From positions 1 through 64,000 of the forward strand of contig CACGJO010000004.1 in NCBI GenBank assembly GCA_902573425.1: DNA of 64,000 bases. Direction: 5' to 3'. Below, piece after piece: positions 22,317 through 52,115 of the stretch. Made by a program: the position numbers and the translations under genes. The stretch is from an uncultured Pelagibacteraceae bacterium. GTDB lineage: Bacteria > Pseudomonadota > Alphaproteobacteria > Pelagibacterales > Pelagibacteraceae. The notes under the pieces were generated by a model, which was given only the letters and a program-made list of their open reading frames with translations, ran no database searches and had not been told where the DNA came from. Position 1 is the first letter of the stretch. Every line of letters begins with the position of its first letter.

Positions 22317-23066
22317 ATGAAAAAATCTACTTTTTACATAGTCGGAAGGCATGCAGTTATAGAAGCTTTGAAAAACCCCAAAAGGAGAGTTTTAAAAGTT
22401 TTTTTAACTGAGGAGTCAAAAAAAAATATTCATAGAAGTAGTCAAAATATGAATTTACTAAAAAATATAAAAATTTATTTTAAAACAAAAAAAGAGCTAG
22501 ATAAGTATTGTGTGAGAGAACAAATAATGCACCAAGGTTATGTAGCAGAGATAGAGCATCTGGAAAAGTTAAATCTTAAAGAATTTATATATCAAAATAA
22601 AAAAGATGATATTAATCTGGTTGCTCTGGATGGCATAACTGATCCAAGAAATATAGGTTCTATAATAAGAAGTGCAGCATCATTTAAAATGGATGGAATT
22701 TTGGTAAAGGAAAGATCATTTCCTGCTGAAAGCAAGTTACTTTACAAAAGTGCCAGCGGATGTACTGAGCTAATCAATATATTCGAAGTAACAAATTTAA
22801 ATACTACCATTAAATATTTAAAATCCAAAAACTTTTGGGTAAGTGGTTTTGATATGAATGGAGAAAAAAATTTTACAGATAATGACTGGAAGGGTAAAAA
22901 TATTCTTCTATTTGGATCTGAGAGTGAGGGCCTTAAATTTCAAATAAAGAAAAACTCAGACTTTCTTTTTTATATTAATATAAACAAAGAAGTAGAAAGT
23001 TTAAATGTATCAAATTCAGCATCTATAGTTTTTCATCATATAAATCAAAAAATTGAAAATAAATAA
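22317..23066 (+). CDS. rlmB: SpoU-family 23S rRNA 2'-O-methyltransferase, RlmB-like
   Basis: The protein (249 residues) belongs to the SpoU/TrmH knotted methyltransferases. An N-terminal substrate-binding region (YIVGRHAVIEAL) precedes motif 1 DPRNIGSIIRSA (109-120), motif 2 LLFGSESEGL near 200 and motif 3 ESLNVSNSASI near 230. The YIVGRHAV start and layout fit RlmB, which makes Gm2251 in the 23S P loop, although other TrmH-like targets are possible. It is transcribed away from the tRNA-Tyr/tuf cluster and converges with the next gene. Confidence 0.85.
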   Translation: MKKSTFYIVGRHAVIEALKNPKRRVLKVFLTEESKKNIHRSSQNMNLLKNIKIYFKTKKELDKYCVREQIMHQGYVAEIEHLEKLNLKEFIYQNKKDDINLVALDGITDPRNIGSIIRSAASFKMDGILVKERSFPAESKLLYKSASGCTELINIFEVTNLNTTIKYLKSKNFWVSGFDMNGEKNFTDNDWKGKNILLFGSESEGLKFQIKKNSDFLFYININKEVESLNVSNSASIVFHHINQKIENK

Positions 23067-23067
23067 A

Positions 23068-23862
23068 TTATTTTATTTTTTTTAAAACAACTCTTCTATT
23101 TAAAGCAAATATACCTGGCAAAAACCATATCAGTAATTTATCTGCAAAATTCATTAAATTAAAAATAAATTTATTAATAGGTATATGAAAAGTATCTTGT
23201 ACTACACCTCCAGAATTTAGAAAAATTGAGAATTCAGAAAGTTCATTTTTTAAAAATACAAAGTTTGGAAAATAAAAATTAAATTTTTTTTCATTTTTAA
23301 ATAATAACTGAGCGACTGCTGTATTTGAGTCCCATGGAGAGTTGGATTTAAATATATATTTTTTTGAATTAAATATATTGACCTTGTAAGACCAAGCCTC
23401 ATCATCAAGTAGATATTGAAAAAATTTTAAGAAAAAAGATGTTTCGGGTTCATTGATTAAAATGAGACCATCTTTTTTTAAATAAATTAACATTCTTTTT
23501 AGAGACTGAGCTGGATTTGGACAATGATGTAGCGCATGATTTATTATAAAAACATCAACTTTTTTTAAATATTTTTTTCCCAAATTTAATTTAGTCATAT
23601 CTACTTTTTTTGATATCCAGGAATATTTTTGAATATCAGTCAATATAATCTTTTTATTTTTTAGTATGTCTTTACTAGCTCCATTTCCACATCCAAGTTC
23701 AATTATAATTTTTTTTCCTTTTAAATAGTTTTTCATCCAAAAAAATCTTTCTTGTAATAAAAAAAAAGTGTTTTTATTTTTTTTATTTTTAAATTTTTTC
23801 CTTGATTTTTGAATGCTACAATTTTTAATTCTTTTGGGATAAAATTCTTTTAGAAATATCAT
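23068..23862 (-). CDS. Class I SAM-dependent methyltransferase
   Basis: A 264-residue protein with a Rossmann-type SAM fold. Motif I is IIIELGCGNGASKDIL (about residues 52-67), the acidic ILTDIQ follows, and VDVFIINHALHHCPNPAQSL is the post-I region of Methyltransf_11 proteins. The second half is Phe-rich and not recognised. The start lies 12 bases after the stop of the polytopic membrane protein, so the two are probably co-transcribed; a role in modifying a glycan or lipid is an inference from that neighbour. Confidence 0.75.
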   Translation of the reverse strand: MIFLKEFYPKRIKNCSIQKSRKKFKNKKNKNTFFLLQERFFWMKNYLKGKKIIIELGCGNGASKDILKNKKIILTDIQKYSWISKKVDMTKLNLGKKYLKKVDVFIINHALHHCPNPAQSLKRMLIYLKKDGLILINEPETSFFLKFFQYLLDDEAWSYKVNIFNSKKYIFKSNSPWDSNTAVAQLLFKNEKKFNFYFPNFVFLKNELSEFSIFLNSGGVVQDTFHIPINKFIFNLMNFADKLLIWFLPGIFALNRRVVLKKIK

Positions 23863-23874
23863 TTTATTTTGAGA

Positions 23875-25191
23875 CTAATAGTAATAGAAATTAGCGCAAA
23901 TTAAAAAAATACTCAAATATAAAAATAAGAATATTGAGTTTTTATAATTAATGAATAATTTTGTAGAAAAAATCGTAAAAGCAAATAGCAAAATAATAGG
24001 GTCGAAATACTCCTGCATCAAAGGCCATAGAATAAGTGAGAGGAAATAAAAATAAGATATAATTAATAAATTATTAAAATTTTTTTCAAGAAAAAATATT
24101 AATATTATCCATGAAACAAAAAAAGAAAAATAAGTAAAGATTTCTTGCAATAATATATTTTCAAATAAAATAATTGAAATTTTATGGATAAAACCTAAAC
24201 CTACAAAATATTTTGTATTTGTAAATTCATAAAAATTAAAGAAAGTTAAAAGATAAGCTAGATAAATAAAAAAAATTACAAATAAAACATAATTTATATT
24301 TTTAGAATAAAATTTTTTAAGTTGTGTTAATATATTTTCATCCTTAAAAAAAATCATAGGCAAAAGGTAAAAAGCAATCATTGTAGTTGCATAACCTAAA
24401 TGTTCAAACCATAATAAATTAACTCTTGATAAAGTTGTGATAGTATTTGGATTATCAGATTGTGTTGACGGTGGAACGATGCCATTCCAAATATAAATTA
24501 AGTATAAAAATGGAATAGAGTATATCAAAAAATTTATTATTGAAAAAATTTTAAACTTTAGATTAATTCTTGAATTAATAATTTTTAATAAAACTAAGAT
24601 TGGTACAATTAAAAATTTTTGATCAAAATATATTGTTAATGAACTGACAAATGTTAAAAGAGTAATTAGAATGTATAAAGATGAGTCTTTTTTATTTTCA
24701 GCGTTAAATGTTAAATTAATTAAAAAAAAAGTTATTAAGAAAGAGATAATGGCGTAATTTATTTCAAGACCCCAATAGGCACTTGTCCTAAAAAAAGGAC
24801 TTAATAAAATAAAGGATGATATAAAAAATAAAATTATTTTATTTGTATTTTTAAAATTTTGAACTAAACAAATATAGAAAATGTATGGTGCTATTAACGA
24901 TATTATAAAAACAGATAGTCTATAACTATCGATATCTGAAATAAATGGATTAAAATATATATGTAAAATATAAAGCAAAGGTGTCCTGTTGCCAAAAAAT
25001 TCCTCATGTAAAACTGCATCTAAAAGATTATTGTTTTTGAATATTTCAAAATTTTTCCACATCCATGATAAATCACCTTGGTAGCCACCTGATCCAATGG
25101 AATTTTCACCATAATAAAAACCAATAAAAAATGATAAATATATTAGAGCGGATAGAAGTGCGGTTATATAATTTTTTATTTTTGTATTCAT
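23875..25191 (-). CDS. Polytopic membrane protein, GT-C glycosyltransferase-like
   Basis: I do not recognise an exact family. The 438-residue protein has about ten hydrophobic segments; the first ends near residue 28 and is followed by a soluble loop with GGYQGDLSWMWKNFEIF, an acidic-residue loop in the place where GT-C sugar transferases keep their catalytic Asp. That topology and the nearby polyprenol-phosphate mannose synthase suggest a lipid-linked sugar transferase. The ATG at 25191 lies two bases after the encoded CCA of tRNA-Thr, leaving no space for its own promoter or ribosome site. Confidence 0.6.
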   Translation of the reverse strand: MNTKIKNYITALLSALIYLSFFIGFYYGENSIGSGGYQGDLSWMWKNFEIFKNNNLLDAVLHEEFFGNRTPLLYILHIYFNPFISDIDSYRLSVFIISLIAPYIFYICLVQNFKNTNKIILFFISSFILLSPFFRTSAYWGLEINYAIISFLITFFLINLTFNAENKKDSSLYILITLLTFVSSLTIYFDQKFLIVPILVLLKIINSRINLKFKIFSIINFLIYSIPFLYLIYIWNGIVPPSTQSDNPNTITTLSRVNLLWFEHLGYATTMIAFYLLPMIFFKDENILTQLKKFYSKNINYVLFVIFFIYLAYLLTFFNFYEFTNTKYFVGLGFIHKISIILFENILLQEIFTYFSFFVSWIILIFFLEKNFNNLLIISYFYFLSLILWPLMQEYFDPIILLFAFTIFSTKLFINYKNSIFLFLYLSIFLICANFYYY

Positions 25192-25193
25192 CC

Positions 25194-25269
25194 TGGTGCC
25201 CTCACACGGACTCGAACCGCGAACCTACTGATTACAAATCAGTTGCTCTACCAATTGAGCTATGAGGGC
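25194..25269 (-). tRNA. tRNA-Thr (TGT anticodon)
   Basis: The 76-base minus-strand gene has acceptor GCCCTCA paired with TGAGGGC, discriminator A and an encoded CCA. Anticodon stem CTGAT/ATCAG with loop TTTGTAA gives TGT (Thr, ACA/ACG). D loop (AGCTCAATTGGTAGAGC) and T loop (TTCGAGT) are canonical. A membrane-protein gene starts two bases after its 3' end. Confidence 0.97.
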
Positions 25270-25277
25270 TTTATCGT

Positions 25278-25306
25278 TTATTAACCTGAAAAAAAAAATA
25301 AATCAA
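25278..25306 (-). promoter_or_regulatory. Candidate sigma-70 promoter of tRNA-Thr and the downstream membrane-protein gene
   Basis: Minus-strand TTGATT (25301-25306) and TAATAA (25278-25283) are separated by 17 bases, and transcription would start within a few bases of the mature tRNA 5' end at 25269. A run of ten T lies in the spacer. Spacing and position are good, hexamers are 4-5 of 6. Confidence 0.45.
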
Positions 25307-25328
25307 CAAATTTTGATTATAATCTAAT

Positions 25329-26099
25329 TTAAATAATTAAATGATTATTCTGCAAAAAATAAGTGTTCAATGGATAATTCTTTTTAATTTCAAAAAATTT
25401 ACTTTTTTTATTTGAAAATAAATATTTCTTAAAATTATATTTTGTTAAAAATCTTTCTATATCTTTTATATCTTCACCTGTTTCAATCATTAGAGCTGGT
25501 TTGTCCCTTTTTATAATTTTCTCCAAACCTTTGATGACCGAAAACTCATGCCCATTTACATCAATTTTAATAAGATGAATTTTTGTTTTAATATTTTTTA
25601 TTTTTTTTAAATAGATCTTTTGCTTAACTATTTCAATGTTTTTTTTAAATACAAAATCTAAATTTATTTGTTTTAAAAGTTTATTTTTGTTATAAAAAGT
25701 ATAAGTAATTAAATCTAAATTTTTTGAAAAAAACTTGTATCTTGGAAAAAAAATATCATAATATTTATTAAATTTATCTATTCCATAAGGATAGATTTTC
25801 ATATTTTTAATATCTAGCTTTTTCAAAATTTTAACATAGGGTATATAAGGTTCAAAACAGATTATTTTATTAACATTTAATTTACGACTGAAAAACTTTG
25901 ATGCTATACCATCACTAGCACCAACATCTATTATATTAATTTTTTGTGAAAAGTTTATGTATGAAACACCATTCGCATCTTGCTCAAAAATATTTGTAAA
26001 CCTAATAAAGTACCTCGTAATGAAGTAAAGTAAAGGATGGCTTCTGACTATTTTTTCAAAAAGATTTAGTATGCCAGAATTAGTTTTTGACGGTTTCAT
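25329..26099 (-). CDS. FkbM-family methyltransferase
   Basis: The 256-residue protein has the FkbM layout: motif I INIIDVGASDGIASKFF (about 73-89), the acidic IICFEPY, and the C-terminal half IHLIKIDVNGHEFSVIKGL followed by RDKPALMIETGE, which are hallmarks of FkbM O-methyltransferases. These enzymes often methylate sugar hydroxyls in surface polysaccharides. It starts two bases after the stop of the 525-residue membrane protein and lies in the glycan segment, so a sugar substrate is likely but not shown. Confidence 0.85.
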   Translation of the reverse strand: MKPSKTNSGILNLFEKIVRSHPLLYFITRYFIRFTNIFEQDANGVSYINFSQKINIIDVGASDGIASKFFSRKLNVNKIICFEPYIPYVKILKKLDIKNMKIYPYGIDKFNKYYDIFFPRYKFFSKNLDLITYTFYNKNKLLKQINLDFVFKKNIEIVKQKIYLKKIKNIKTKIHLIKIDVNGHEFSVIKGLEKIIKRDKPALMIETGEDIKDIERFLTKYNFKKYLFSNKKSKFFEIKKNYPLNTYFLQNNHLII

Positions 26100-26101
26100 T
26101 G

Positions 26102-27679
26102 TTAATTTATTTTTCTTATTACAGATAAAATAACACCATTTCTCTTAACCTGTGTAACATCAGTTCCTGAAAATTTTTTAAAGCAATTTGTGACATTTTT
26201 TGAAGAATTAATATTTTCTTTTATAAACGTTGATCTATTCGTCATGATAATAAATTCAGAATCTTCTAAATCTTCAAAACTAAAATTTGAAAAACCAGCT
26301 TTTTCTAAATAAAATTTAGCATTAAACTCGGCTATACCACAACTTGAAAACACAATTTTAGAATTTTTATTAAGATTTGTTTTATAAATAAGTTCTTTGA
26401 TAGATGATCCCCAGTAATCATTTTCGAACTTTTGATTATAGTTCTCAGATTTCCCATTCAAAATATTTAGATATGTATAATGATAAGGTGTTAACGATAA
26501 AAAATTAATTATAAAATAAGAAAATAATATTAATTTTAAAGATACTAAAAATTTTGAAAATTTTAATTTTATATTTTCGAGTAAGAAATAAATTGATAAT
26601 GCGGGAATTATACAGGTATATGGAATCATCCATAATACGTGTCTAAATCCATCGTAAATTGAAAATGGAGTTAAATATAATAAAACAAATGGATAAAATA
26701 TCATTATGAAAAGTAAAATAAGTTTATAGTAAAAAATTGAAAAACTTTTAAAAAAAAAGCCCCTATAACTAACAAATAAAATTATAAAAATTATATATGA
26801 TATTAAAAAGTACTCTGGTGATTTATAAATAAAGTTTATTAATAAATACGATTTAGGGATATCTTTATAGATAAAATATTCGCCATTTAATAACATATAT
26901 GGATAACCTCTCCACAAATCAGAAAATGACCATTCTATAAAAAATTTAAATGGTAGTATGAATATATTCTGATGCGTATCTATCCAAAATAAAACTAATA
27001 AAAAATAAAATATTAAAAAACTTTTTAAAATATCTAAAAACAATTTTTTCTTTTTAAAATTTCTAATACAAATTTTTTTTCCGAAAAAAACGTCATAGAA
27101 AATAAATAAAAATAAAGGAATTAATGAACCAAAAAAAAATAAATTAATTCCTGTACCAATTGCAGATAAAACTCCAATATTATAAAAATAGTTTGAACTT
27201 TTAATTTTTGATTGATTTTTAAGATATTTTATAAAAGAATAAAAAATCCAAACATGACAAAAAGCAATAATTGTATCTTTGCTGTTGAAAGACATATGGC
27301 CATGGAATGCGGGAAAAAGAAAAAGTACTATAAATGTAATTTTTGCTACTTTTTTGTTAAATAATTCTTTACACACTTGTGTAATCCCAAAAATTGCACC
27401 AATGGAAAAACTTAGGTTAAAGAGATGATTTACTTCAAACTGATATTTAATAGGAAAACTTTGTAAAAATAAATATTTTAATGAGTAATAAATTGGTGAG
27501 TAGTATTCTCTTCTGAAAATATATTCGTCAATTCTGCCAAGTGAGAATAAGTAATTTAATGTAATTTGACCTTGTTTTGATAAATGCCCTTCATCCCAGG
27601 TTTGACCGAGTGTTATTGCAGAATATGATGAAAATAGAATTAAAGATAATAAAATAATATTTTGTTTAGATTTAAACAT
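26102..27679 (-). CDS. Polytopic membrane protein, PMT/GT-C-like glycosyltransferase
   Basis: A 525-residue protein with about ten hydrophobic spans and the loop TLGQTWDEGHLSKQGQ just after the first span. The Asp-Glu pair there is where PMT and ArnT-type enzymes hold the catalytic acidic residue. It also has a long aromatic loop (NGEYFIYKDIPKSY) and a C-terminal soluble domain of about 90 residues with GSSIKELIYKTN. It is probably a transferase using a polyprenyl-phosphate sugar, but no exact family match can be claimed. It follows a 101-residue gene and precedes FkbM by two bases. Confidence 0.65.
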   Translation of the reverse strand: MFKSKQNIILLSLILFSSYSAITLGQTWDEGHLSKQGQITLNYLFSLGRIDEYIFRREYYSPIYYSLKYLFLQSFPIKYQFEVNHLFNLSFSIGAIFGITQVCKELFNKKVAKITFIVLFLFPAFHGHMSFNSKDTIIAFCHVWIFYSFIKYLKNQSKIKSSNYFYNIGVLSAIGTGINLFFFGSLIPLFLFIFYDVFFGKKICIRNFKKKKLFLDILKSFLIFYFLLVLFWIDTHQNIFILPFKFFIEWSFSDLWRGYPYMLLNGEYFIYKDIPKSYLLINFIYKSPEYFLISYIIFIILFVSYRGFFFKSFSIFYYKLILLFIMIFYPFVLLYLTPFSIYDGFRHVLWMIPYTCIIPALSIYFLLENIKLKFSKFLVSLKLILFSYFIINFLSLTPYHYTYLNILNGKSENYNQKFENDYWGSSIKELIYKTNLNKNSKIVFSSCGIAEFNAKFYLEKAGFSNFSFEDLEDSEFIIMTNRSTFIKENINSSKNVTNCFKKFSGTDVTQVKRNGVILSVIRKIN

Positions 27680-27693
27680 TTATTCATTTATTA

Positions 27694-27999
27694 TTATTTA
27701 TTTTCAATGTCTTTAAATTCATTTTTTATTTTAAGATAAAATTTATAAATCAGAAGTTTATCTTCATCATTAATTATTTTATCTTTTTCCAGACCTTGTT
27801 TTAATTCAGATCTTATTTTATCTTTAACGGACTCAATATTTTCCTTTTTGTTTAAAAGCAATATTTTGTTTATATTTTCTAATTTATCGGCAAATATTAA
27901 GTTGTAGGTCACATTGATAATTATAATTATTGCAAAAGTTATCGCAATTAACTTAATAATAAATTTTTTTAAGTCTGTCTGATTTTGATTATTACTCAT
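27694..27999 (-). CDS. Small single-span membrane protein of unknown function
   Basis: I do not recognise this 101-residue protein. It has a polar N terminus (about 12 residues), one strong hydrophobic segment at about 13-35 (IIKLIAITFAIIIIINVTYN), and then a charged Lys/Glu/Asp region predicted to form one or two helices. It lies 14 bases upstream of the PMT-like gene on the same strand, so a helper or scaffold role for glycan enzymes is possible. The reading frame has normal AT-rich codon use. Confidence 0.6.
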   Translation of the reverse strand: MSNNQNQTDLKKFIIKLIAITFAIIIIINVTYNLIFADKLENINKILLLNKKENIESVKDKIRSELKQGLEKDKIINDEDKLLIYKFYLKIKNEFKDIENK

Positions 28000-28028
28000 T
28001 AATTTTTATTATATGTCATTGTAATTAA

Positions 28029-29252
28029 TTAATATACCTTAAACACAGGAAGTGGAAAAATAAATTTACTTCCTTTTTTAATTAGATTTTGCTCTCTATT
28101 TAAAATTTCTTTTTTAAAATGCCAAGGTAGAACAAAATAAAAATTTGGCATTAACTTTCTAGATCTACTCTCGGTAATGATTTTAATTTTTGTACCTGGG
28201 GTGAAATGATTGTTTTTTTTAGGATTTCTATCAGCTATATATTTTATATGCTTATTTGTAATACCAAAGTACTGTAATAAAACATTTCCTTTTGTAGAGG
28301 CGCCATAGCCGTGGATTATTTTATTTTGTGATACTATTTTGTTAATATATTTAATTGTGTTTAATTTCATTTTATTAATATGTTTAAAAAATACTGAATA
28401 AGTCTTTTTATTTGTAAGTTTCATTTTATTTTCAATTTTTAAGATTTTATTTATAAATTTATTATTTGTTTTATAAATTGAATTCTTTTTACAAATAAAA
28501 TACTGTGTGCTTCCACCATTTATATTATTGTTTCTAAGGTCGAAAACTCTTAAATTATTCTTTTTTGCCATATTAATTATAATTTTATTTGAATAATACG
28601 TGAGGTGTTCTTGACAAATTGTATCAAACATTTTTTGTTTAACTATTGACATTAGGTCAGCATGCTCAATTAAAAAAATACCATTATCGTCTAATATTTT
28701 ATTTATATCTTTAAAAAATAGGTTCGGATTATTTATGTCATAAAACACAGATAAAGCTGTTATGATTTTAAACTTCTTTTTTGGTAATTTTTTAATAATT
28801 TTTTCTGCAGAAAAAAAATCAGAAATTTTATAATTTATTTTTTTATAAAACTTACTATATTTATTAACTAGTGGATCTACGCCGAATTTTATAAGTTTTT
28901 TATCGAAAAAATTTAATAAGGTACCATCATTACTTGCTATATCTAAAATGCAGTCCCCTTTTTTCAACTTAATTTTTCTTGTTAAATTTTTCATTATATT
29001 CTTCATGTGATTAGTCATGGTCTTATTTATCCCAGTCCTATATCCATAATCAGGCCCATATAAATATTTAAGATTGTAATTATTATTGAGCTGTACGAGT
29101 GAACACTTATTACATATCACAAGAGTTAATTCTGTTTTTTTGATATTTGTATTTATATTTTTAGGAAATTTTCCTGTATAACTTAGTTTTCCTAAAGAAA
29201 ATAATTTTGATAATTTTTTTCCTTGGCAATTTCTACATTTTTTCAATTTCAT
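28029..29252 (-). CDS. C-methyltransferase-like protein with N-terminal zinc-binding domain (NDP-sugar type)
   Basis: The 407-residue protein matches the three-part sugar C-methyltransferase architecture. The N terminus has CRNCQGKKLSKLFSLG and CNKCSLVQL, a four-Cys zinc site (Methyltransf_13); the centre has SAM motif I CILDIASNDGTLLNFF; the C-terminal domain has IHGYGASTKGNVLLQYFG (Methyltransf_14). Family members add methyl groups to NDP-keto-sugars in surface polysaccharides and antibiotics. Here it sits in the glycan segment, divergent from the GT2 gene across 33 bases. Confidence 0.85.
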   Translation of the reverse strand: MKLKKCRNCQGKKLSKLFSLGKLSYTGKFPKNINTNIKKTELTLVICNKCSLVQLNNNYNLKYLYGPDYGYRTGINKTMTNHMKNIMKNLTRKIKLKKGDCILDIASNDGTLLNFFDKKLIKFGVDPLVNKYSKFYKKINYKISDFFSAEKIIKKLPKKKFKIITALSVFYDINNPNLFFKDINKILDDNGIFLIEHADLMSIVKQKMFDTICQEHLTYYSNKIIINMAKKNNLRVFDLRNNNINGGSTQYFICKKNSIYKTNNKFINKILKIENKMKLTNKKTYSVFFKHINKMKLNTIKYINKIVSQNKIIHGYGASTKGNVLLQYFGITNKHIKYIADRNPKKNNHFTPGTKIKIITESRSRKLMPNFYFVLPWHFKKEILNREQNLIKKGSKFIFPLPVFKVY

Positions 29253-29270
29253 TCAGTCTATTTCTTGAGT

Positions 29271-29278
29271 ATTATAAT
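29271..29278. promoter_or_regulatory. Shared symmetric -10-like element between divergent methyltransferase and GT2 genes
   Basis: ATTATAAT at 29271-29278 reads TATAAT on both strands, seven bases before the GT2 ATG and 18 bases before the methyltransferase ATG. No good -35 is visible on either strand, so this is only a weak prediction of a bidirectional promoter. Confidence 0.25.
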
Positions 29279-29285
29279 TTACTTC

Positions 29286-29987
29286 ATGAAAAGTAAAATA
29301 TTAATTTTTTCAGCAACTTATAATGAGTCAAAAAATATAACACTTTTGCTAAATTATATTGAGGATCTTAATTTAAATTTAGATATTTTGATTGTTGACG
29401 ACAACTCTCCTGACAAAACTGCAGATATCATTAAAGAATACTCAAAAAATAAAAAAAATATTCATTTAATTGTAAGAGATAAAAAAAGTGGATTGGATAC
29501 TGCCCATAAGTTGGCATTTGAGTACAGTAAAAAAAAACAATATGAAAATTTAATTACAATAGACGCTGACTTAACTCACGACCCAAAAAAAATTCCAGAA
29601 TTTATAGAAGAATTAAAAAATAATCCTTTTGTTTTGGGTTCAAGATTCGTTGAAGGTGGCTCTTTAGATACTGCTGGTTGGAGAAGATCATTAAGCATAT
29701 TTGGAAACAAATTTATTAAAATAGTTTTTGGTATAAACTCTAATGAATTTACAACAGCTTTTAGGGGTTATAATTTAAAAAAATTAGAAGGTTTCGATTT
29801 AAGAGATGTGAAATCTAAGGGATATAGTTTTTTTATGGAAACCATATATTTATTGGATAAAAGAAACATTCCAATAAAAGAGATACCTTTTCACGCAAAG
29901 TTACGTCACAAAGGAAAATCAAAAATTGAAAGAATTGAAATATTTAGGACTTTAATAAATGTTTTGAGATTAAAGTTTTCAAAGTAA
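29286..29987 (+). CDS. GT2 glycosyltransferase, polyprenol-phosphate mannose synthase-like
   Basis: The ATG at 29286 (MKSKILIFSATYNES) gives 233 residues; upstream codons in frame look like non-coding sequence. The GT2 fold shows ATYNE, LIVDDNSPDKTADII, the metal-binding ITIDADLTHDP and GSRFVEGGSLDTAGWRR, which together are the dolichol/polyprenol-phosphate mannosyltransferase (DPM1) pattern. There is no membrane segment at the C terminus, as in the catalytic-only form. It would charge a polyprenyl phosphate with a hexose for the GT-C-like proteins nearby. Confidence 0.85.
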   Translation: MKSKILIFSATYNESKNITLLLNYIEDLNLNLDILIVDDNSPDKTADIIKEYSKNKKNIHLIVRDKKSGLDTAHKLAFEYSKKKQYENLITIDADLTHDPKKIPEFIEELKNNPFVLGSRFVEGGSLDTAGWRRSLSIFGNKFIKIVFGINSNEFTTAFRGYNLKKLEGFDLRDVKSKGYSFFMETIYLLDKRNIPIKEIPFHAKLRHKGKSKIERIEIFRTLINVLRLKFSK

Positions 29988-30296: not shown

Positions 30297-31061
30297 TTAA
30301 TTAATTTTTTTTTGTTCTTCTTTTATTTTTTTAATCAAGCTGCTTCCTTTATCAAAAAGTAAATTTATTTTAATTTTTTTATTTACCTTAACTTCTATTT
30401 TTTTTATATTTCTTATTTCATTGTTATCCGCCACAGCTGAGATTGGTCTCTTTTTACTTTGAAGATTAATTATATTAATTTTTGATCTTTCAGAGATTAA
30501 TTTGCCTTTCCATCTTCTGGGTCTGAATGGACTAATTGGAGTTAGTGCAATTTTTTTTGAGTCTAAGGATAATATGGGGCCGTTAACTGATAAATTATAT
30601 GCCGTGCTTCCTGCTGGCGTTGATACAAGCACTCCATCACTTACTAATTCCTTGATTAAATTTTTTTGATTAACTTTAATTTGTAAATTAGCTGTTTGTT
30701 TACTTTGCCTTAATAAAGAAATTTCATTAACTGCAATCATTTTAAATATCTTTTTTTTTACATTTGTTATTTTGACTTCAATTGGGTTTATAGTAAACTT
30801 ATTAGCCTTTTCTATTTTTTTGCTTAGTAAAGAAATCTTCTGGTTTTTATTCATTAAAAAACCAACTGATCCACAATTAACTCCATAAAAAGGTTTTTTA
30901 AAATTATAAAATTTTTTAAGGCTTCTTAACATAAATCCATCGCCACCAGCTACGATAATACTGTTACATTTTTTAATAGAATACTTTTTAAAATTTTTTA
31001 ATCTTTTTCTCAATAACTGTGATTTTTTGTTTTTATCAAATATAAAATGACATTTATTCAT
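30297..31061 (-). CDS. nadK: NAD kinase
   Basis: This 254-residue protein phosphorylates NAD to NADP. It has the GGDG catalytic motif (39-42) and the second conserved block SDGVLVSTPAGSTAYNLS (141-158), with NGP and PFRPRRW further on. Length is normal for the compact alphaproteobacterial type. The gene lies in the same strand unit as two unrelated glycosyltransferase-like genes and the two-span protein; this housekeeping enzyme is embedded in the surface segment. Confidence 0.95.
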   Translation of the reverse strand: MNKCHFIFDKNKKSQLLRKRLKNFKKYSIKKCNSIIVAGGDGFMLRSLKKFYNFKKPFYGVNCGSVGFLMNKNQKISLLSKKIEKANKFTINPIEVKITNVKKKIFKMIAVNEISLLRQSKQTANLQIKVNQKNLIKELVSDGVLVSTPAGSTAYNLSVNGPILSLDSKKIALTPISPFRPRRWKGKLISERSKINIINLQSKKRPISAVADNNEIRNIKKIEVKVNKKIKINLLFDKGSSLIKKIKEEQKKIN

Positions 31062-33911: not shown

Positions 33912-36218
33912 TTAAAATTTATTTGAGATCTGTACCAACGCGCCGTATTCAGGAACTACACTCGTAAAATTATAATTAGCATCAACATCCAAATCAAATA
34001 CACCTAATTTTTTTGAATAGTGACTATTGAGTTTATAATCTTGTAAAGCGTCAAAACTTAAAGCAAAATCATAATCTTCTTTTTTAACACGTCCTATTTT
34101 AAGAAAAAAACTATCCGTGTGAGAATTTTCATTATAATCATAATTAAATGAATCTAAATGCTGTAATCTCTCATAGTTAAATGATAACGTAAGATTGTTC
34201 TCATAAACTTCCTCAATTCCATAACTAAATCTCATATTTTTTTGGGAATATTTTTCGATTTTATAAAGTTCAGAACTAGAGCTGTCTGAATAAGTATAAT
34301 CAACAACAACATCAGGTGAATAGTCATAAACCAATTCTAAACCACCGTTATGGGAAACACTTTTATTTTTATATTGAATTGGATCTAAATTAAATAAAAT
34401 TCCTGTTGCTAAATCACTAGTTACAAATTTCTCACTTCCGTAAATTACATTTGTTGCCCCTGATGAAGCGTTTGTCATAAATTCAGTGAAATCAGATAAT
34501 TTGGTTACTGCATATTTTAATTTAAATGATGGAGTAAGATTTAGACTGCCAAATTCAGTATCATTTCTAAAATCAATTGATGTATAAATTTGCTGACCAT
34601 TCCTTTCTCCAGTTATAACTCCTTCGGTTTTAAGGTCATATTCTAGTTGGCTTAAACCTATAACTGTATTGGTATATCCATTATCTTTAAAAGGGGTAAT
34701 AAAGTAATAGTTCAATGACAATGAATCCATTAATGTATCACCTGAGCTACCAAGCCGAGCTTTGCCATCTGAATATCTTACTGAATAACCATAAAAACTA
34801 TTTTTACTATTTTTTTTATCTGCTCCGAATGAAATGCCGCTGGTAGTTATATCTTTGGGTTTTTCTAAAATTGTGCCCAGATAATCAGATTTTCCATGAT
34901 AAGAGCCATATGTTAAATCACCATGACTCCAATATGACCAATTCCTTTTTTTGTCTTTGCTTGATTTATTTTTAAGAGAGGCAGTTTGAACAAGATCTTT
35001 GCTTTGAACTTTATCAAATAAATAGTTTAACATTAGGTTATCTGATTTTATTGAAGCACTGAAATTATTAAAGTTATTGTTATGTCTATTTCTTTTTATC
35101 CATTCAAATCTTTTAAAAATTACTGAACTATTTTCACTTACATTATTTTTTGCTAATTGAATTTGGGTGCTTACACCTGTCCTTGGGTCAGACACGCAAG
35201 CAAAGATACCGAAATTGCATGATAAACCTACTTGGGTAACAACATCTACACTGCCACCAGCAACAAATTTGTCTGAATCCTGCGAACCAATTCTATTTAC
35301 AAGATAAAGTTTATTTCCTGAGGGACTAAAGGCCATTCCAAAAGCAGCTGTATTAATTGTTCCTGATGGAGTAACCGAACCTACAATGGTTGCAGTATTA
35401 GTTGAAAAAGGTTGGGTTAATCTAAATTGGAAAATAGCATCTTTATCAGTTTGGTTTAATGCATTAGCATCATGCATTAGCACAAACATGTTCAATCCAT
35501 CTTGACTGAATTCTATAGCATGAGCATCATCCTTCGAGTCTAGATTAGCTGTAGTTGTTAATGTAATGGTATTTAATAAAGTTATAGATGTTAAGTCGTA
35601 AGCAGTTGATAATTTATATTCGTCAATATGTTGGGCTTCTCGAGTACCATCTAAAAAAATTAGTTTTTTTCCATCATTGCTAAAACTAAAGTTTGCCCTG
35701 CCTCCAGTATTACCATCTGTAAGATCACTTGTTACATTGTCTGAATAAGTTAACCCATTAAGATCGAATGGTTTAGCTAGATCAAAGCCATGGATTTTGC
35801 CCGTTACATTTCCTAAAAACAATTTAAGTCCATCTCTACTAAATTTAATATCTGAACATTTTGTGTCATTTTCATTGTCAGTCAAACCTACTTTTTCAAC
35901 TAATGGGCTTGCTTCATCTATTACACGTGAAACAGTTCTTAAATCAAAAGGAGTTTTAAGAGTCATCATGCTTATACATTCATGATCTCCATTAGATGTG
36001 AAATTGCTTGAAAAAACTTTTTTACCATCATTGCTAAAGGCTAAACCTGTGGGTAGTTGAAAAGCATCCCTAACTATTGTATTTCCTTCTGAGTTAGTGA
36101 GTCCAGATGCCAATGGTCTTATTGCTTTTTCAAACGTTAGAGTGGCTTGAGCTTTTGCGTATGTCTCATAGCAAATTGTTATAACAGCCAGTAAAAAAAA
36201 TAGCTTAATTGATCTCAT
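33912..36218 (-). CDS. Autotransporter-like outer-membrane protein with beta-propeller-like passenger
   Basis: The 768-residue protein starts with a signal peptide (RSIKLFFLLAVITIC, likely cleavage after AKA or AQA near residues 23-25). The passenger carries five blade-like repeats of the form FSxDGxKLF near residues 61, 126, 180, 237 and 297, a WD40/lactonase-type propeller pattern, and Cys pairs (C334/C341). A linker at about 345-400 precedes roughly 350 residues of alternating hydrophobic strands that end in a C-terminal Phe (VQISNKF), the mark of an outer-membrane barrel. Passenger ligand is unknown. The gene stands alone between tRNA-Leu and znuA. Confidence 0.7.
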   Translation of the reverse strand: MRSIKLFFLLAVITICYETYAKAQATLTFEKAIRPLASGLTNSEGNTIVRDAFQLPTGLAFSNDGKKVFSSNFTSNGDHECISMMTLKTPFDLRTVSRVIDEASPLVEKVGLTDNENDTKCSDIKFSRDGLKLFLGNVTGKIHGFDLAKPFDLNGLTYSDNVTSDLTDGNTGGRANFSFSNDGKKLIFLDGTREAQHIDEYKLSTAYDLTSITLLNTITLTTTANLDSKDDAHAIEFSQDGLNMFVLMHDANALNQTDKDAIFQFRLTQPFSTNTATIVGSVTPSGTINTAAFGMAFSPSGNKLYLVNRIGSQDSDKFVAGGSVDVVTQVGLSCNFGIFACVSDPRTGVSTQIQLAKNNVSENSSVIFKRFEWIKRNRHNNNFNNFSASIKSDNLMLNYLFDKVQSKDLVQTASLKNKSSKDKKRNWSYWSHGDLTYGSYHGKSDYLGTILEKPKDITTSGISFGADKKNSKNSFYGYSVRYSDGKARLGSSGDTLMDSLSLNYYFITPFKDNGYTNTVIGLSQLEYDLKTEGVITGERNGQQIYTSIDFRNDTEFGSLNLTPSFKLKYAVTKLSDFTEFMTNASSGATNVIYGSEKFVTSDLATGILFNLDPIQYKNKSVSHNGGLELVYDYSPDVVVDYTYSDSSSSELYKIEKYSQKNMRFSYGIEEVYENNLTLSFNYERLQHLDSFNYDYNENSHTDSFFLKIGRVKKEDYDFALSFDALQDYKLNSHYSKKLGVFDLDVDANYNFTSVVPEYGALVQISNKF

Positions 36219-51799: not shown

Positions 51800-52115
51800 A
51801 ATAAAAAGTAAAATTAAAACAATGATCGATGAAAATAGTGTGGTGCTTTTTATGAAAGGTACACCCGATACTCCACAGTGTGGTTTTTCAATGACAGTTA
51901 CAAATATTCTCAAACATCTTCAGGTAAAATTCCAAGGAGTAAATGTTCTAGAGAGCAATGAGATGAGACAGGGAATTAAAGATTACACCGATTGGCCAAC
52001 AATACCTCAATTATATGTAAATGGAGAATTTATTGGAGGCTGTGATATTGTAAAAGAAATGTTTGAAAAAGGTGAATTAAAAAAACTTTTTGAGAGTAAA
52101 TCTTTATTATCTTGA
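51792..52115 (+). CDS. grxD: Monothiol glutaredoxin, Grx4 type
   Basis: The 107-residue protein has the CGFS active site (Cys30) in [13 protein letters not shown], and the [19 protein letters not shown] glutathione-binding block. These proteins carry a [2Fe-2S] cluster with glutathione and BolA. A strong GGAGG ribosome site lies in bolA, seven to eleven bases upstream. The end overlaps the convergent rpsD by nine bases, leaving no intergenic terminator. Confidence 0.96.

Follow-up and report, generated by a model that had tools for sequence, protein, structure and literature searches.

A hypervariable glycan gene island of a Pelagibacteraceae genome encodes a predicted GT-C glycosyltransferase and a linked single-helix protein

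We analyzed a stretch of 64,000 nucleotides from an uncultured Pelagibacteraceae bacterium (contig CACGJO010000004.1, positions 1 to 64,000; hereafter the window), in which a candidate glycosylation island, a low-GC gene run (22-23% vs. ∼30%), lies between rlmB and nadK. The host genome assembly has 985,842 bases and is 79.5% complete, and the nearest named relatives of the host are uncultured Pelagibacteraceae single cells. The conserved left border is rlmB (22317-23066, forward strand; TIGR00186, 171 bits, cut-off 160), with the same border in relatives, and the conserved right border is nadK (30297-31061, reverse strand; NF003406, 311 bits, cut-off 211). Between them, on the reverse strand unless stated otherwise, are the following: an S-adenosylmethionine (SAM)-dependent methyltransferase at the downstream end of the run (23068-23862; PF13489, 30.7 bits, cut-off 27); GTC2, a putative second GT-C membrane glycosyltransferase of 438 amino acids (aa; 23875-25191); a tRNA-Thr(TGT) embedded in the run (25194-25269; ARAGORN, and Rfam with 74.6 bits); an FkbM-family methyltransferase (25329-26099; TIGR01444, 64 bits, cut-off 37.7); GTC1, a 525 aa membrane glycosyltransferase with a predicted GT-C fold (26102-27679); sTM, a Pelagibacterales-specific partner of GTC1, 101 aa long with one predicted transmembrane (TM) helix (27694-27999); CMT, a sugar C-methyltransferase (Methyltransf_13/14; 28029-29252); and, divergently oriented on the forward strand, GT2, a predicted polyprenyl-phosphate glycosyltransferase, 233 aa long, that resembles dolichyl-phosphate-mannose synthase (DPMS) and has no TM domain (29286-29987). 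A preliminary description of this DNA had proposed GT2 and the two large membrane proteins as a polyprenyl-phosphate-sugar glycosylation system, with FkbM and C-methyltransferase enzymes alongside; the open reading frames it named are all present, and both methyltransferase assignments agree with ours. It had overlooked the sTM and tRNA-Thr genes.

Most island genes occur in near-identical order in related single-cell genomes, at locus L131 (82-97% protein identity) and partly at L132 and L156. Comparison with related loci gave ratios of nonsynonymous to synonymous divergence (dN/dS) of 0.03-0.24 for GTC1, GTC2, FkbM, CMT, GT2, and sTM, so the scored genes are real genes under selection. In more distant relatives the borders are kept and the content between them is exchanged, and the tRNA-Thr gene switches strand or place; thus, the island is hypervariable. 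The synonymous divergence (dS) from L131 is uneven along the island (1.0 for CMT, 1.6 for sTM, and 0.2-0.45 for several neighbors), which suggests piecewise recombination. We also considered whether this is the known O-chain biosynthesis cluster (OBC/HVR2) of the Pelagibacterales (SAR11), likewise a hypervariable island rich in glycan genes, which lies between the 23S and 5S rRNA genes or at a relocated site (PMC11898729). However, the window contains no rRNA gene, and hence neither the 23S nor the 5S gene that flanks the OBC, and the flanks here are rlmB and nadK; we therefore rejected this assignment.

Direct searches with GTC1 and GTC2, singly (Pfam, NCBIfam, and PDB sequences) and as profiles (PDB), returned nothing useful, and the assignments below come from family-wide Pfam scans, a fold search, and profile comparison. 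The AlphaFold2 model of GTC1, built from 57 sequences, has a predicted local distance difference test (pLDDT) score of 93.1 and a predicted template modeling score (pTM) of 0.93, and its best 36 Foldseek matches in the PDB are all GT-C enzymes, including PglB (E = 6e-7), ArnT (3e-6), ALG12 (5e-6), STT3, AglB, and Pmt4 (1.4e-5), all remote (10-13% identity); the TM-scores of Pmt4 (0.54/0.57) are the best among the top ten. This structure comparison, which the preliminary description had proposed, bears out its view of 26102-27679 as GT-C-like. At the family level, 16 of 25 GTC1 relatives match PMT_2 (PF13231) at E ≤ 1 (best, 1.6e-12); GTC1 itself scores below the curated cut-off (21.1 vs. 26.1 bits) and has no Pfam match in hmmscan. 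The first TM helix (positions 3-23) is closely followed, in the first extracytoplasmic loop, by an acidic residue, D29, invariant in 57 of 57 relatives. Further invariant residues among these sequences include N132, D135, R346, P398, N405, and the motif FExDYWxxS; the NxKD motif ending in D135 is invariant or nearly so in the family. D29 and D135 are consistent with the two acidic residues of GT-C active sites, as judged by position rather than by superposition of active sites. By its modeled fold, then, GTC1 is a GT-C enzyme, and use of a polyprenyl-linked donor is predicted. A search for viral relatives in BFVD gave no match at E ≤ 0.001, the best being a Nitrosopumilus virus protein (1.6e-3).

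GTC2 is a probable remote GT-C relative. Its profile aligns with that of GTC1 over the N-terminal helices (hhalign E = 1.4e-6 with profile A3 and 6.6e-8 with profile A1), whereas unrelated membrane families used as controls gave 0.003 or worse and a reversed profile 0.025. Similar to D29 of GTC1, residue E29 of GTC2, likewise acidic and close behind the first TM helix, is invariant in 20 of 20 relatives (it aligns to E30 of GTC1, the neighbor of D29); the first loops of both proteins, which had been described as acidic, thus each hold a conserved acidic residue. One of the 20 GTC2 relatives matches PMT_2 (E = 2.7e-5). At the junction of the tRNA-Thr and GTC2 genes (25189-25197), the encoded CCA end lies only 2 nt before the GTC2 start codon (CACCA-GG-ATG), and the same junction in L131 reads CACCA-AG-ATG; either tRNA processing would leave the GTC2 mRNA leaderless, or its Shine-Dalgarno sequence would be the GAGGG in the acceptor stem of the tRNA.

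The sTM gene is tightly linked to GTC1. We compared the surroundings of 65 distinct sTM sequences. A GTC1-family gene lies no more than 100 nt away in 60 of them and no more than 800 nt away in another 2; the remaining three comprise one at a contig end, one at a locus edge, and one chance match outside the order, leaving a GTC1-family neighbor in 62 of 62 informative cases. Since gene order and orientation of the pair differ between loci, inheritance of a single arrangement does not by itself explain the link. The dN/dS of sTM (0.03-0.06) is lower than that of GTC1 (0.14-0.16), which, with the caution that dS is saturated, points to strong purifying selection on sTM. Outside the Pelagibacterales, ∼285 other alphaproteobacterial genomes gave only marginal matches, none above chance level; three candidate sTM genes outside the order (L242, L243, and L244; E 0.001-0.005) were judged to be chance matches. 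A tree built from 72 GTC1-family proteins places the sTM-paired members in separate, well-supported SAR11 groups with sTM-less GT-Cs of other phyla interleaved, which forces at least four label changes. In one SAR11 clade (L168-L182), the GTC1 proteins are longer (562-577 aa) and sTM is consistently missing, while the surrounding genes are different ones, themselves conserved; the extended C-terminal region of these proteins might take the place of sTM. L138 is the single member without sTM inside an sTM-paired clade. The simplest reading is that sTM is an accessory subunit of GTC1 and that the two form a two-subunit periplasmic GT-C enzyme, a physical complex that we infer from these patterns; the charges of sTM suggest that its N-terminus is inside and its C-terminus outside.

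The host genome contains a second copy of sTM where one contig ends (G000:C2:110050-110301; L129 9042-9281), adjoining another putative GT-C of 525 aa, with a PMT_2 match above cut-off in the same frame; the host may hold two sTM modules. In addition, several other SAR11 genomes carry a distant sTM-GTC1 pair between grxD and rpsD (L019, L021, and L024-L029); the genes that flank this site touch each other in the window (52107-52115), with no sTM-GTC1 pair between them.

For GT2, we take the ATG at 29286 as the start, since the listed TTG at 29223 merely lengthens the frame. Its best PDB match is the DPMS of Pyrococcus furiosus (PfDPMS; 5mlz, E = 1.4e-22), followed by ArnC (3e-7) and GtrB (2e-4). 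Comparison with the donor, acceptor, and acceptor-loop (A-loop) residues described by Gandini et al. (2017; PMC5526996) revealed that GT2 keeps E12, D39, D89 and D91 (the DAD motif), S135, R202, and K208 (A-loop) of PfDPMS; only Q93 is not kept, being T in GT2 and S or T in most relatives. In PfDPMS, D39 contacts guanine and S135 lies at the phosphate of dolichyl phosphate (PMC5526996), and the presence of D39 suggests a GDP-sugar donor for GT2 as well. The only domain found is PF00535; the GtrA-like TM domain (PF04138) of PfDPMS is lacking, as it is in soluble DPM1 types. These residues strongly support GT2 as a DPMS-like enzyme, in line with the DPM1-like protein of the preliminary description, and transfer of mannose from GDP-mannose to polyprenyl phosphate is predicted. 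Homologs that could supply it are encoded elsewhere in the genome: ManC (E = 9e-106, just under the curated cut-off), Gmd (406 bits vs. a cut-off of 415), and UppP.

CMT (PF08484, E = 1.1e-45) is closest to D-mycarose 3-C-methyltransferase (PDB 4rv9, E = 3.7e-41) and TcaB9, so it probably acts on a nucleoside diphosphate (NDP)-keto-deoxysugar, the substrate class of its family, rather than on a lipid-linked hexose; the polyprenyl-linked sugar need not be a CMT substrate.

We put the chance a little above even that the island is an extracytoplasmic (periplasmic) glycan-decoration module. GT2 would load polyprenyl phosphate with a hexose at the cytoplasmic face, mannose (from GDP-mannose) being the likeliest; a flippase other than GtrA would move the lipid-linked hexose across the membrane; and GTC1, in complex with sTM, would act in the periplasm and pass the sugar on to an acceptor of the envelope, with GTC2 acting likewise on another site or acceptor. 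The FkbM, CMT, and SAM-dependent methyltransferases would make methylated deoxysugars for this surface glycan or cap it with them, and would act on nucleotide sugars or on the glycan itself, not on the lipid-linked hexose. As acceptor, the O-chain or core of lipopolysaccharide (LPS) would be the most likely, and we favor it over protein. The coupling of the GT2 product to GTC1 and GTC2, its flipping, the sugar, the acceptor, and the decoration of that sugar are all steps that we infer. More tentatively, and with a chance that we place somewhat short of even, the Pelagibacterales may have a class of two-subunit GT-C enzymes in which sTM is an obligatory single-pass subunit (an analogue of Pbn1/PIG-X, not a homologue), working in a polyprenyl-phosphate-mannose pathway.

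Several observations weigh against the proposed module. The GT2 family is found in 16 of the 29 GTC1-bearing genomes and lacking in 13, and the GT2 proteins at the GTC1 loci L133, L138, L139, L142 (copy read as L053), L152, and L157 are without the DPMS residues; the local GT2 is therefore a plausible, not a necessary, maker of the GTC1 donor. No uppS was found in the host assembly, which is 79.5% complete (uppS is present in 13 of 21 partial genomes of the same genus), and this assembly likewise has no GtrA (PF04138). GtrA occurs in only 5 of 247 SAR11 genomes and is absent from 242; MATE and other flippase families were not searched genome-wide. Since GT2 has no TM domain and the genome no GtrA, the flippase of the pathway is not assignable to GtrA. 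Finally, for GTC2, which the preliminary description had also called GT-C-like, the controlled remote profile homology stands, but its own AlphaFold2 model, from five sequences only, is unusable (pLDDT 44).

In the most serious alternative, a possible but clearly less probable one, the enzymes are real glycosylation enzymes but belong to no single pathway: the island would be a set of interchangeable glycan genes, GTC1 with sTM would take its donor from a GT2 encoded elsewhere, and the local GT2 would feed something else. Consistent with this, the GT2 beside GTC1 differs by locus, since L131, L132, and L156 have the DPMS type and L134-L137 a DPMS type of another subgroup (T at S135), against the non-DPMS proteins listed above; the nearest orthologs of the local GT2 often adjoin gmd, without GTC1; and no GT2 adjoins the sTM-GTC1 pair where it lies between grxD and rpsD. 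However, a similar gene set recurs in another genus (L118 in genome G009), where CMT, GT2, FkbM, GTC2, sTM, and GTC1 lie within ∼7 kb; in addition, FkbM-GT2-CMT is found at L226, and at L235, L228, and L227 GT2 is accompanied by CMT or FkbM. That L134-L137 have a DPMS-type GT2 at the corresponding place, though of another subgroup, also speaks for a single pathway. The co-occurrence across genomes that the preliminary description had suggested as a check is above chance, though not obligatory as the 16 of 29 genomes indicate: 16 genomes have both GTC1 and GT2 against 6.7 expected (p = 6e-5), and 25 have both GTC2 and GT2 against 12 expected (p = 5e-6; Fisher tests), values that are only suggestive, being uncorrected for relatedness or assembly completeness and based on hit thresholds that differ for GTC1, GTC2, and GT2.

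It is improbable, in our view, that GTC1 and sTM instead carry out PMT-type protein O-mannosylation of periplasmic or outer-membrane proteins from polyprenyl-phosphate-mannose. The DPMS-like donor enzyme and the leading TM-scores of Pmt4 would agree with this, but PglB and ArnT outrank Pmt4 by E-value among matches that are all remote, GTC1 falls below the PMT_2 cut-off, and the sugar-modifying neighbors favor a glycan. Very improbable is another role of the GT-C fold in GTC1 and/or GTC2, such as transfer or polymerization of lipid-linked oligosaccharides: PglB/STT3 give the best E-values and GTC2 has no usable model, but the two acidic positions of GTC1 fit GT-Cs with lipid-monophosphate donors (ArnT, PMT, and ALG) equally well, and the island also encodes a synthase for lipid-monophosphate sugars.

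The proposed periplasmic decoration is of a kind already known. In rhizobia, RgtE and RgtA-D, a GT2 with ArnT-like GT-Cs, decorate the lipid A/core in the periplasm from a polyprenyl-phosphate sugar. Similarly, ArnC/ArnT combine a GT2 with a GT-C acting in the periplasm from such a donor, and ArnT is among the best fold matches of GTC1; but both are very remote in sequence, and GT2 resembles DPMS much more than it does ArnC. In the three-component periplasmic systems (the GtrA/GtrB/Gtr type, and the undP-Ribf system with GT136; PMC11127046), a polyprenyl-phosphate sugar synthase and a GT-C are also encoded together in variable surface-glycan loci, whereas the island has no GtrA or other recognized flippase gene nearby, its synthase is DPMS-like without a TM domain, its GT-C has a dedicated single-TM partner, and methyltransferases lie alongside. 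Where DPM1 and PfDPMS use dolichyl phosphate, GT2 presumably takes a bacterial polyprenyl phosphate. A GT-C catalytic subunit paired with a single-TM auxiliary protein is found in eukaryotes in Gpi14-Pbn1 (PIG-M/PIG-X), the glycosylphosphatidylinositol (GPI) mannosyltransferase I (PMC12653191), as we see for GTC1-sTM at the gene level; however, no homology was detected, and Pbn1, a protein of the endoplasmic reticulum, has ∼400 aa and a large domain on the luminal side, whereas sTM is bacterial, has 101 aa, and is helical by appearance. The conserved sTM-GT-C pair and the SAR11 form of the pathway thus appear to be the new part. We found no paper on a polyprenyl-phosphate-sugar pathway in SAR11 in the open-access literature, which does not prove absence.

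SAR11 cells are among the most abundant bacteria of the ocean, and surface glycans are prime candidates for phage and grazer recognition. To our knowledge, what is known of glycan assembly in SAR11 comes almost entirely from the O-chain cluster. If the proposed module is real, a lipid-monophosphate donor pathway whose GT-C has a partner protein of its own would add a second, extracytoplasmic layer of SAR11 surface variation; sTM/GTC1 would be a testable bacterial pair of small subunit and GT-C, and the donor's route across the membrane where GtrA is lacking becomes a question.

Farther along the window, a 768-aa protein encoded at 33912-36218 adjoins a tRNA-Leu gene; it has an apparent signal peptide and a C-terminal half that looks rich in beta structure, and is perhaps a surface protein of the autotransporter type.

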